DNA from: Alphaproteobacteria bacterium 46_93_T64
GTDB taxonomy: Bacteria; Pseudomonadota; Alphaproteobacteria; Sneathiellales; Sneathiellaceae
Assembly (NCBI GenBank): GCA_002163135.1
Contig: MAAN01000018.1
Span: 1-64,000 of the forward strand
DNA: 64,000 nt
Direction of reading: 5' to 3'
Positions 22,719 to 60,088 of this stretch are shown one piece after another; the stretch's first letter is position 1, and each line of letters begins with the position of its first letter. The translations under genes were made by a program, and so were the position numbers. The notes below the pieces were generated by a model that worked only from the letters and a program-made list of their open reading frames with translations, had not been told where the DNA came from and ran no database searches.

Positions 22719-22747
22719 AAAAAAAGCCGGTGATTTGCATCACCGGC
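22719..22747 (-). terminator. Rho-independent terminator of gltD-gltB
   Basis: On the minus strand GCCGGTGA / TCACCGGC forms an 8-bp stem with a 6-nt loop, followed by seven T residues, 12 bases after the gltB stop codon. Confidence 0.9.
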
Positions 22748-29154: not shown

Positions 29155-29193
29155 CAAAAAAACCGGCGGGACAAATCAATGCCCAGCCGGTTT
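29155..29193 (-). terminator. Terminator of the NDUFA9-like gene
   Basis: Minus-strand stem ACCGGC(T)GGG / CCC GCCGGT with a 12-nt loop followed by seven T residues, 24 bases past the stop codon at 29217. Confidence 0.85.
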
Positions 29194-57065: not shown

Positions 57066-58778
57066 ATGTCTAATACTGATCTAGCCGAAGAAGGCATGCC
57101 AGCGTTCGAAGATTTTGCAGCAATGCTTGAAGAATCTTATGGCGCCAGCAATAGCCTCGAAGGCACTGTTATTAAAGGCACTGTCGTCAATATTGAAAAA
57201 GATCTCGCCATCATTGATGTTGGATTGAAATCTGAAGGCCGTGTTCCTTTGAAGGAATTTTCAGCCCCGGGTCAGGATTCTGACCTGAAAATTGGCGATA
57301 CTGTAGAAGTATTTCTTGAGCGTATCGAAAATTCTGCTGGTGAAGCTGTTCTGTCACGTGACAAAGCTCGCCGCGAAGAAGCATGGGAAAAACTCGAAGT
57401 TGCCTTTGGCGCCAATGAGCGTGTTGACGGTGTTATCTTCGGCCGTGTTAAAGGTGGTTTCACTGTTGACCTTTCCGGCGCTGTGGCATTCTTGCCAGGT
57501 AGCCAGGTAGACGTACGTCCAGTACGCGACATTGCACCACTTAAAGGTATCCCACAACCATTCCAGATCCTGAAAATGGATCGTCGCCGTGGCAACATCG
57601 TTGTTTCACGTCGTGCCGTTCTTGAAGAAAGCCGTGCGGAAGCCCGTGCCGAACTTATCGGAACATTGGAAGAAGGCCAAACACTTGAAGGTGTGGTCAA
57701 GAACATCACTGATTACGGTGCATTCGTTGATCTTGGCGGTGTTGATGGTCTCTTGCATGTTACTGACATTGCATGGCGTCGTGTGAACCATCCAACAGAA
57801 GCACTGACAATCGGTGAAACTGTTAAAGTTCAGGTTATCCGCCTCAACAAAGAAACTCAGCGTATCAGCCTCGGCATGAAACAGCTGCAAACAGATCCAT
57901 GGGATGCTCTTGAAGCTAAATACCCACTTAACGCCAAATTCTCTGGCCGCGTAACAAACATCACTGATTACGGTGCATTTGTTGAGCTGGAACCAGGTGT
58001 TGAAGGACTTGTTCACGTTTCAGAAATGAGCTGGACTAAGAAAAACGTACATCCAGGCAAAATCGTTTCAACTTCTCAGGAAGTAGAAGTGATGGTTCTG
58101 GAAGTGGACGAAAGCCGTCGTCGCATCAGCCTTGGTCTGAAACAGTGCCTGGACAACCCATGGGAAAGCTTTGCGGCTTCCACACCGGTTGGAACAGAAA
58201 TCAAAGGTGACGTTAAGAACATCACTGAATTTGGTCTGTTTATCGGTCTTGAAAATGATGTAGACGGCATGGTTCACATGTCTGACATCGACTGGAGCGA
58301 GCCTGGCGAAAAAGCTATTCAAAGCTACAGCAAAGGCGATGAAGTTTCTGCTAAAGTTCTGGACATTGACATCGAGAAAGAGCGTATCAGCCTCGGTATC
58401 AAACAGATGAGCGAAGATCCATTTGCTGGCGCAGCTGAAATGAAAAAAGGTGCGATTGTTACTTGTACCGTTACTGCAATTCAGGACGCCGGACTTGATG
58501 TTGAAATTTCTGAAGGCGTAACAGGCTTTATCCGTAAGGGTGACCTGAGCCGCGATCGTGCCGAGCAACGTTCAGACCGCTTTGCGGTTGGTGACAAGCT
58601 TGACGCGAGAATCACTTCAATCGACAACAAGACCCGCAAGGTCACATTGTCTATTAAAGCAAAAGAAGTTGCTGAAGAAAAAGAAGCCGTTGCACAATAC
58701 GGCTCTTCAGACGCAGGTGCTTCTCTTGGCGACATCCTCGGTGCTGCTATGCGCAAAGCCGAAGGTTCGGACGATTAA
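57066..58778 (+). CDS. rpsA: 30S ribosomal protein S1
   Basis: 570-residue mRNA-binding ribosomal protein with six S1 (OB-fold) repeats spread over about residues 35-545; the repeated VTNITDYGAFVELEPGVEGLVH and GDVKNITEFGLFIGLENDVDG types are visible, as are the RISLGMKQL ends of repeats. It brings mRNA to the 30S subunit. Acidic N terminus, Ala/Gly-rich tail. Codon use is more strongly biased than neighbours, as expected for a highly expressed gene. Its terminator appears to lie within the following sppA frame. Confidence 0.96.
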   Translation: MSNTDLAEEGMPAFEDFAAMLEESYGASNSLEGTVIKGTVVNIEKDLAIIDVGLKSEGRVPLKEFSAPGQDSDLKIGDTVEVFLERIENSAGEAVLSRDKARREEAWEKLEVAFGANERVDGVIFGRVKGGFTVDLSGAVAFLPGSQVDVRPVRDIAPLKGIPQPFQILKMDRRRGNIVVSRRAVLEESRAEARAELIGTLEEGQTLEGVVKNITDYGAFVDLGGVDGLLHVTDIAWRRVNHPTEALTIGETVKVQVIRLNKETQRISLGMKQLQTDPWDALEAKYPLNAKFSGRVTNITDYGAFVELEPGVEGLVHVSEMSWTKKNVHPGKIVSTSQEVEVMVLEVDESRRRISLGLKQCLDNPWESFAASTPVGTEIKGDVKNITEFGLFIGLENDVDGMVHMSDIDWSEPGEKAIQSYSKGDEVSAKVLDIDIEKERISLGIKQMSEDPFAGAAEMKKGAIVTCTVTAIQDAGLDVEISEGVTGFIRKGDLSRDRAEQRSDRFAVGDKLDARITSIDNKTRKVTLSIKAKEVAEEKEAVAQYGSSDAGASLGDILGAAMRKAEGSDD

Positions 58779-58831
58779 TCAAAAAAGGATCGGATATTTG
58801 GACATGAAATGTAAGCCTATTGGAAGACGCC

Positions 58832-59737
58832 ATGTCTGTTGATACCGATGCAATAATAGACAGGCGCCGTTTAAAACGGCGCCTGTTTTTTTGGCGCGCA
58901 GCAACCGTTCTGGTTGCCGTTGCCGCCCTCTCAATTCTATTTGCCAAATTTGGCCCCTCAAACGAGCAGGAGCATGTGGCCCGCTTGAATATCGACAATG
59001 TTATTGTTGAAAATGAACGGCGCCAGATAACAATCAATAAAATTCTCAAAAATGATCAGGCAAAAGCTCTGATCGTCTATATTAACAGCCCTGGCGGCTC
59101 CACATATGGCAGCGAACGCTTATTCAAAGCCCTGCGCCGCGTGGCAGAGAAAAAACCGGTTATTGCTGTTATCGGAACAATTGGCGCCTCTGGCGGATAT
59201 CTCACCGCCCTTGCCGGTGACCGTATCTTTGCTGGGGAAAGCTCGATTACAGGCTCCATCGGCGTCATAGTCCAACTAACTGAGTTTTCGACGTTAATGG
59301 AAACACTTGGCGTGAAAGCCGAGGCTATTACATCAGGTAAACTTAAAGGCGAGCCTTCCCCGTTCAAACCACTATCCGCAGGAGGCCGCCAAAACCTTCA
59401 GGATATGGTAAGCCAAACACACGAATGGTTTGTTGATTTGGTTGCAGACCGACGGCCTCTGTCACGGAAAGAAGCCGCTGTAATTGCAGATGGACGTGTC
59501 TTAATCGGTAAATCAGCACTGGGTGCTGGGCTTGTGGATGAGCTCGGCGGCTTGCTGGAAGCACGCGCTTGGCTGGAATCGAACCAGCAGATTCCCGCCT
59601 CTCTTCCTCTCATTACGGCTGATTACAGTGCCCCAAAAGGCCTATTACGGGATATTTTGCAAGGAATGTTGGGGAAAAGCGTTATATCTGAAAGACTTAC
59701 ACTTGACGGACTGGTCTCCCTTTGGCACCCTAATTGA
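58832..59737 (+). CDS. sppA: Signal peptide peptidase SppA (S49)
   Basis: 301-residue inner-membrane serine protease of family S49, which digests cleaved signal peptides. A basic cytoplasmic start DRRRLKRRLFFWR is followed by a membrane helix (about 23-41). The catalytic Ser is in GASGGYLTALAGDR (about 120) and the Lys in TSGKLKGEPSPF (about 170), a Ser-Lys dyad. The short length is that of the half-size SppA found in alphaproteobacteria. ATG 58832 follows GGAAGA; TTG 58820 is less likely. The 5' coding part contains a terminator-like hairpin. Confidence 0.92.
   Translation: MSVDTDAIIDRRRLKRRLFFWRAATVLVAVAALSILFAKFGPSNEQEHVARLNIDNVIVENERRQITINKILKNDQAKALIVYINSPGGSTYGSERLFKALRRVAEKKPVIAVIGTIGASGGYLTALAGDRIFAGESSITGSIGVIVQLTEFSTLMETLGVKAEAITSGKLKGEPSPFKPLSAGGRQNLQDMVSQTHEWFVDLVADRRPLSRKEAAVIADGRVLIGKSALGAGLVDELGGLLEARAWLESNQQIPASLPLITADYSAPKGLLRDILQGMLGKSVISERLTLDGLVSLWHPN
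58861..58892 (+). terminator. Intrinsic terminator inside the sppA start region
   Basis: CAGGCGCCGTT / AACGGCGCCTG is a perfect 11-bp GC-rich stem with a 3-nt loop, followed by seven T residues. It lies 82 bases after the rpsA stop and encodes SppA residues 11-20 (RRRLKRRLFF). It has every feature of the rpsA terminator while being translated as part of sppA. Confidence 0.8.
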
Positions 59738-59800
59738 AATAGATTTTATTAAACATGGATTGATCGCAGCAATCTAATAAAACATTGGGGGCATCTTAGG

Positions 59801-60088
59801 ATGATTAAGTCGGAGCTTATTGCACTTCTCGCAGAGAAAAATCCTCACCTGTTCTTGCGAGATGTGGAACGTATTGTAACTACCATTTTCGATGAAATTT
59901 CTGACGCCATGGCCCGCGGTGACCGGGTCGAACTTCGTGGTTTTGGCGCCTTTTCCACTAAAGAACGTGCCGCACGCGTTGGCCGCAACCCACGAACAGG
60001 CGAAGCCGTTCAGGTAGAAAAGAAATATGTACCCTATTTTAAATGCGGCAAAGAGCTGCGTGAGCGCCTGAATACAGGAAACGAATAA
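59801..60088 (+). CDS. ihfB: Integration host factor subunit beta
   Basis: 95-residue HU/IHF-family DNA-bending protein. Typical [15 protein letters not shown] start, helix pair, the beta-arm with [10 protein letters not shown] (Pro that intercalates into DNA), and the C-terminal helix [13 protein letters not shown]. With IHF-alpha it bends DNA, which helps sigma-54 activators loop to the promoter, so it ties functionally to the amt promoters in this window. Confidence 0.95.

Follow-up and report, generated by a model that had tools for sequence, protein, structure and literature searches.

Does the hairpin that lies in the first codons of sppA, immediately downstream of rpsA, serve as the transcription terminator of rpsA, and if so, how can the same bases also specify the N-terminus of a signal peptide peptidase? 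We addressed this in a 64,000-nucleotide stretch of contig MAAN01000018.1 (the window) from Alphaproteobacteria bacterium 46_93_T64, whose genus was taken as Sneathiella (Sneathiellaceae, Alphaproteobacteria), and in sppA genes of related genomes.

The hairpin at the rpsA–sppA junction

The sequence CAGGCGCCGTT-TAA-AACGGCGCCTG (58861-58885) forms 11 perfect pairs and runs directly into T7, with 82 bases between it and the end of the rpsA stop codon (58778) (Table 1). A first-pass annotation had described this same combination of 11-bp stem, 3-nt loop, T7 and 82-base distance, and all of it was confirmed inside the true sppA frame. Its placement at codons 11-20 was nearly exact: the stem starts at the third base of codon 10 and finishes with codon 18, and the T7 reaches Trp21. 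The sppA ATG at 58832 is 29 nt ahead of the stem.

RNAfold added three weak outer pairs, giving 14 pairs over 58858-58888. The minimum free energy of the 66-nt segment was -27.8 kcal/mol against a shuffle mean of -15.9 (z -3.84), and one of 200 shuffles was as good. The hairpin thus has the stable, GC-rich perfect stem, 3-nt loop and immediate U-tract of a canonical intrinsic terminator, the tract being T7 in the window and weaker in some relatives; unlike a canonical terminator, it lies wholly within the next gene's coding sequence and is kept via synonymous codons. By the terminator score used throughout (a literature formula; positive meaning above 0), it ranked third among nine positive sites on both strands of the window and first on the plus strand, comparable to the best other sites there. 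A separate, ready-made hairpin scan returned the minus-strand reading of the sppA hairpin only, without the plus-strand one. Other strong terminator-like sites, at 1993-2014, 22726-22747 and 29163-29190 (minus strand), can be used as local comparisons.

The inverted repeat is unique in the genome at 0 mismatches, with two further places at 2 mismatches; origin from a repeat element was rejected because of this single exact copy. No Rfam family exceeded its gathering score in 58500-60000, where four weak sRNA matches fell below threshold.

Table 1. Features of the rpsA–sppA–ihfB locus, in window coordinates
Feature	Coordinates	Strand	Basis
rpsA, ribosomal protein S1	57066..58778	+	NCBIfam NF004955, 1020 bits
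rpsA–sppA spacer, 53 nt, without a terminator of its own	58779..58831	+	sequence
Shine-Dalgarno-like GGAAGA in the spacer	58822-58827	+	by eye
sppA, S49 signal peptide peptidase, 301 aa	58832..59737	+	TIGR00706 191 bits, PF01343
Putative terminator stem, 5' arm	58861..58871	+	third base of sppA codon 10 to codon 14
Putative terminator loop, TAA, 3 nt	58872..58874	+	sequence, RNAfold
Putative terminator stem, 3' arm	58875..58885	+	sppA codons 15-18
T7 U-tract	58886..58892	+	Phe19 TTT, Phe20 TTT, first T of Trp21
TTGACG-N17-CACCCT, probable ihfB promoter in last sppA codons	59703..59731	+	codon-frozen; not part of hairpin
ihfB (IHF beta), gene after sppA	59801..60088	+	TIGR00988 149.6 bits

Silent-site conservation and compensating changes

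An sppA orthologue was recovered from 20 of 24 Sneathiella genomes (G010, G013, G016 and G017 gave no match at the threshold). The arms CAGGCGCCG/CGGCGCCTG were kept base for base in all 20, with 58861-58869 and 58877-58885 invariant, and loss of the stem by synonymous change, for which close relatives were checked, was not seen. The arms were also identical in G024, from another genus of the same family, and in G025, from another family, whose SppA proteins are 54% and 56% identical to that of the window. Across these 22 genes, codons 11-18 read AGG CGC CGY NNN AAR CGG CGC CTG.

Such uniformity is exceptional within the gene. Among the 20 genus genes, 110 columns hold an invariant amino acid with degenerate codons, and just 14 use a single codon. 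The stem arms account for five of these 14; the other nine lie at or beyond codon 249, eight of them within 282-297. Invariant Arg also fills five columns away from the hairpin, and each of those used at least four codons. The rare Arg codon AGG stood at codon 11 in 22/22 genes of families f1 and f2, 26/35 genes of family f10 and 1/103 other loci; elsewhere in the gene its share of Arg codons was 0.04-0.06.

The codons of the U-tract were chosen along with those of the stem. Phe20 was TTT in 19/20 f1/f2 genes and in 14/14 f10 genes with the hairpin, compared with 0/4 f10 genes without it and 5/27 others. Ser19 or Thr19 was TCT or ACT in 20 of 21 f1/f2 and f10 carriers, codons whose shares in the remainder of these genes were 0.10-0.13. 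This joint choice is our main reason for reading the element as a terminator and not just as any hairpin. The structure may instead be kept as RNA for another purpose, for example to protect an rpsA mRNA 3' end formed by Rho and trimming, or to slow the early translation of a membrane protein. L021, L098 and L099, with about 12 pairs and almost no U-tract, would suit that explanation; but U-tract codons accompany the stem in f1/f2 and f10, and 103 other sppA loci have no hairpin, so that we regard it as distinctly unlikely. Against the terminator reading, the tract is nearly absent in the two f106 genes (TCG CTC) and in L021 (TCG ATC). Of the 21 family members, 16 had a positive terminator score, while L012, L013, L015, L018 and L021 fell below 0, mainly because of weaker U-tracts.

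Beyond the family, stems change in sequence and keep their pairing. In f10, where 35 of 40 genomes had an sppA match, an in-register stem of at least nine pairs was present in 24 of the 35 genes. The typical f10 stem, GACAGGCGGCG..CGCCGCCTG, has the C-G pair of codons 12/16 flipped to G-C, and the third-position pair of these codons is A-U in L176 and G-U in L168. L122, in G113 of another family, carries CAGCCGGCGCCTCAGGCGCCGGCTG and then ATTTTTTGG. In an alignment of 62 genes from five families (52 distinct rows), chosen regardless of hairpin, 89.9% of cells paired in this register, whereas slid registers reached 24.8-54.0%. None of 500 shuffles attained the covariation score of 0.161. Pair 12.3-16.3 was CG in 21 cases, GC in 19, and AU, GU and UA in one each, the sole U-A being in L169, a gene without a full stem. 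Five distinct sequences have U-A in place of A-U at the outermost pair, 10.2-19.1, by way of two amino-acid changes. Neither pairs changed on both sides (4 vs 3.1 in shuffles; 162/500 as high) nor further pair types (9 vs 6.7; 24/500) were in clear excess in this alignment, and in the RNA-strand test the bases of pair 13.3-15.3 did not depart from independence (p 0.24).

Taken by themselves, the arms could be a DNA palindrome, and a protein-bound operator would fit arms that repeat each other perfectly in inverted orientation, at a spacing that is constant throughout the genus. We nevertheless consider an operator very improbable: the lineages differ in their bases and yet retain the pairing (C-G, G-C, A-U), the T-tract is one-sided, and the genome holds no second perfect site, only the two places at 2 mismatches. 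Silent-site conservation and covariation indicate that the hairpin has been selected as a structure, and in several lineages it appears to be preserved by silent codon choices alongside the protein message.

Separation of the hairpin from the peptide, and its origins

The first-pass annotation stated that related SppA proteins share the basic patch before the membrane helix, and it does recur: variants close to DRRRLKRRL..WR were found at SppA N-termini across the class Alphaproteobacteria. Because any set of codons for RRRLKRRL is partly palindromic, the hairpin might be a by-product of peptide and codon bias. We redrew codons from each gene's own usage; stems in 21/21 family members had 10-12 pairs, compared with 3.2-4.4 expected (each p<=0.007). 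The 103 other loci had a mean stem of 3.5 observed and 3.0 expected, with 3/103 at p<0.05. Among the 23 of these with exact RRRLKRRL the stem was slightly above expectation (4.5 vs 3.8), with 2/23 at p<0.05 and a longest stem of 8. An identical peptide alone does not yield the hairpin. The randomisation of family members and control loci leaves the by-product explanation next to no probability, and contradicts it for the genus and for the 24/35 f10 genes with stems of at least nine pairs. The proposal that RNA and protein signals are co-selected stands insofar as they share codons, but the two are separable, since the patch is widespread and the RNA signal is an addition in a few lineages; the 103 other loci, including the 23 with identical RRRLKRRL, lack such a hairpin.

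SppA was found at E<=1e-45 in 123 genomes, the low-scoring G390, G272, G091, G333, G288, G234, G144 and G406 being left out. We dropped L025, L109, L110, L112, L134, L152, L153 and L184-L187 as second copies of the same genome, L031 as the same contig as L008, and L029, L113, L136, L143 and L148 for unmappable N-termini. L035 and L041 have the same patch sequence and were both counted in the 103; L041 and L020 (a truncated gene) were left off the tree. The f10 genome G412 has two close sppA orthologues, on contigs C57 and C6, which its listed contamination of 9 may explain; the second copy is outside the counts.

On an SppA tree of 163 rows built with the hairpin residues excluded, 48 rows carry the hairpin; their distribution requires 10 changes of state and occupies four separate places, 47/159 inner branches of this quick tree being weak. 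Such scatter makes a repeated origin likely. CGN codons are self-complementary and AGG pairs into a Leu codon, which would put a palindrome within easy synonymous reach. Palindromes would in this way form readily in the Arg/Lys/Leu patch that precedes the membrane helix of SppA, and several lineages have probably gained the signal or rebuilt it.

A terminator called in the rpsA–sppA spacer was found in none of the 21 family members, nor in G025. Of the 23 f10 genes whose embedded terminator scored >0, one also had an intergenic terminator; of the 12 with none embedded, L176 being placed among them at -0.5, just below the cut, eight did (raw Fisher p 1.6e-4). With phylogeny controlled, five pairs gave 0 the same way, 2.4 opposite and 2.6 with no difference, which is the right direction, with too few pairs to reach significance. 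L171 and L172 have weak embedded terminators at -9.8. In 78 other loci where rpsA was seen, 11 had an intergenic terminator only, one (L122) an embedded one and 66 neither, so that ending rpsA ahead of sppA is not a general need.

Other hairpins were noted at these junctions. By eye, L165, L166, L168, L176, L177 and L022 have long, GC-rich hairpins right behind the rpsA stop codon, where a U-tract is slight or absent; these accompany or replace the embedded terminator and are possibly decayed terminators or 3' protectors. L071 and L091 have different strong hairpins with short T runs about 70 bases into sppA, beyond the conserved site, which may be further embedded signals or chance.

Proposed termination and readthrough, and a probable downstream promoter

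We conclude from these comparative sequence data that the hairpin is most likely a constitutive intrinsic terminator of the rpsA unit, situated in sppA codons 10-21, and that sppA would then be expressed from readthrough. Polymerase leaving rpsA would form the GC-rich hairpin and U-tract, probably ahead of any ribosome, and most transcripts would end near 58886-58892, leaving a readthrough minority to carry sppA. Abundant S1 and a scarce membrane protease could in this way share one promoter. The earlier proposal of an rpsA terminator is supported insofar as the element looks like a selected terminator; on this reading it would stop most rpsA transcripts.

The first-pass annotation also saw an attenuation-like arrangement here, with sppA levels tied to readthrough or to sppA translation. 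In such a scheme, early sppA ribosomes close behind polymerase would melt the hairpin, so that sppA transcription reports its own translation, or S1-dependent initiation. The start codon, merely 29 nt before the stem, would favor this, and advancing ribosomes can suppress an in-frame terminator, as in a pyrL reporter (PMC5021804). In that reporter, however, the terminator still cut expression ~18-fold without the stall motif (PMC5021804), and by our estimate polymerase passes the sppA U-tract before a ribosome is at codon 10. A search for contiguous complements from the last 20 nt of rpsA to sppA codon 9 found no conserved antiterminator or other alternative pairing (1/22 sequences beat shuffles at 0.05), which leaves regulated attenuation unsupported, and no sensor or leader peptide was recognised in a systematic search of Rfam. 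On timing we think translation-coupled attenuation unlikely, although the sppA ribosome itself may act as the control.

The constitutive terminator that we favor would reduce transcription of whatever lies beyond it. Such a loss should be tolerable, since ihfB apparently has a separate promoter within the sppA 3' end. Near the sppA stop codon, CTTACACTTGACGGACTGGTCTCCCTTTGGCACCCT is frozen at silent sites: in f1 and f2 its second Leu is CTT in 21/21 genes (expected 0.21) and its Pro CCT in 20/20 (expected 0.14). In 86 sppA genes, none of them from f1, f2 or f10, the same element has Leu CTT in 80/80 (expected 0.13), Asp GAC in 86/86 (0.63) and Pro CCT in 74/74 (0.10), and TTGACG-N17-CANCCT (window 59690-59731) is codon-frozen at the sppA 3' end across the sampled Alphaproteobacteria. 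An ihfB match was found in 98 of 115 genomes; 30 loci were examined, 11 with SppA upstream by tblastn. TTGACG-N16-18-xAxxxT occurred within 330 bases before ihfB in 11/11 loci with SppA, and a similar site in 11/19 without detectable SppA (0.16 expected from shuffles), a few of which may hold a diverged SppA end. Sites before ihfB even where SppA is not detectable point to an ihfB promoter, and the element in the last sppA codons is probably just that. This is consistent with enterobacteria, in which ihfB is co-transcribed with rpsA and also has its own promoter (PMC8942017). The enterobacterial unit places ihfB between rpsA and ycaI with no sppA intervening, and the accessible portion of that report mentions no embedded terminator (PMC8942017). 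A literature search on ihfB, sppA and promoter gave a Zymomonas omics paper as its sole match.

It is conceivable, though doubtful, that sppA acts as a dual-coding node holding both the upstream gene's terminator and the downstream gene's promoter, with the protease made by readthrough only and S1-dependent initiation tuning that readthrough so that it reports S1 supply.

The E. coli pyrBI attenuator involves the pyrL leader peptide and senses UTP by a nucleotide-sensitive pause. The sppA hairpin shares with it a terminator hairpin in a translated frame, with which a ribosome could interfere (PMC5021804); unlike pyrL, it lies in the structural gene itself, and no sensor was found. RNA 3' ends within ORFs and 5'UTRs, some formed by predicted intrinsic terminators, are also described in E. 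coli, where internal ends are discussed either as premature or as giving rise to small RNAs (PMC7815308). Unlike these, the sppA hairpin would serve the upstream gene, and it shows codon-level covariation between families. Searches of the open literature for rpsA, sppA and terminator gave no match; for terminators within coding sequences, no equivalent was present among the matches listed (titles and abstract openings), and the accessible part of PMC12350095 holds nothing specific to embedded terminators. Intrinsic terminators and ORF-internal ends are already known (PMC7815308). Among the matches listed in our open-literature searches, none described a terminator that serves an upstream gene and is maintained through covarying synonymous codons in the gene after it.

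Searches for terminators usually concentrate on the gaps between genes, and silent sites often count as neutral. In sppA, a terminator appears to be written in synonymous codons, and the changes that separate lineages are compensatory. The locus is a natural test case for the sharing of bases between a protein message and an RNA message, and for the way in which adjacent genes reach different levels of expression. If the reading is correct, codon optimisation or methods based on silent-site rates would misread such genes.
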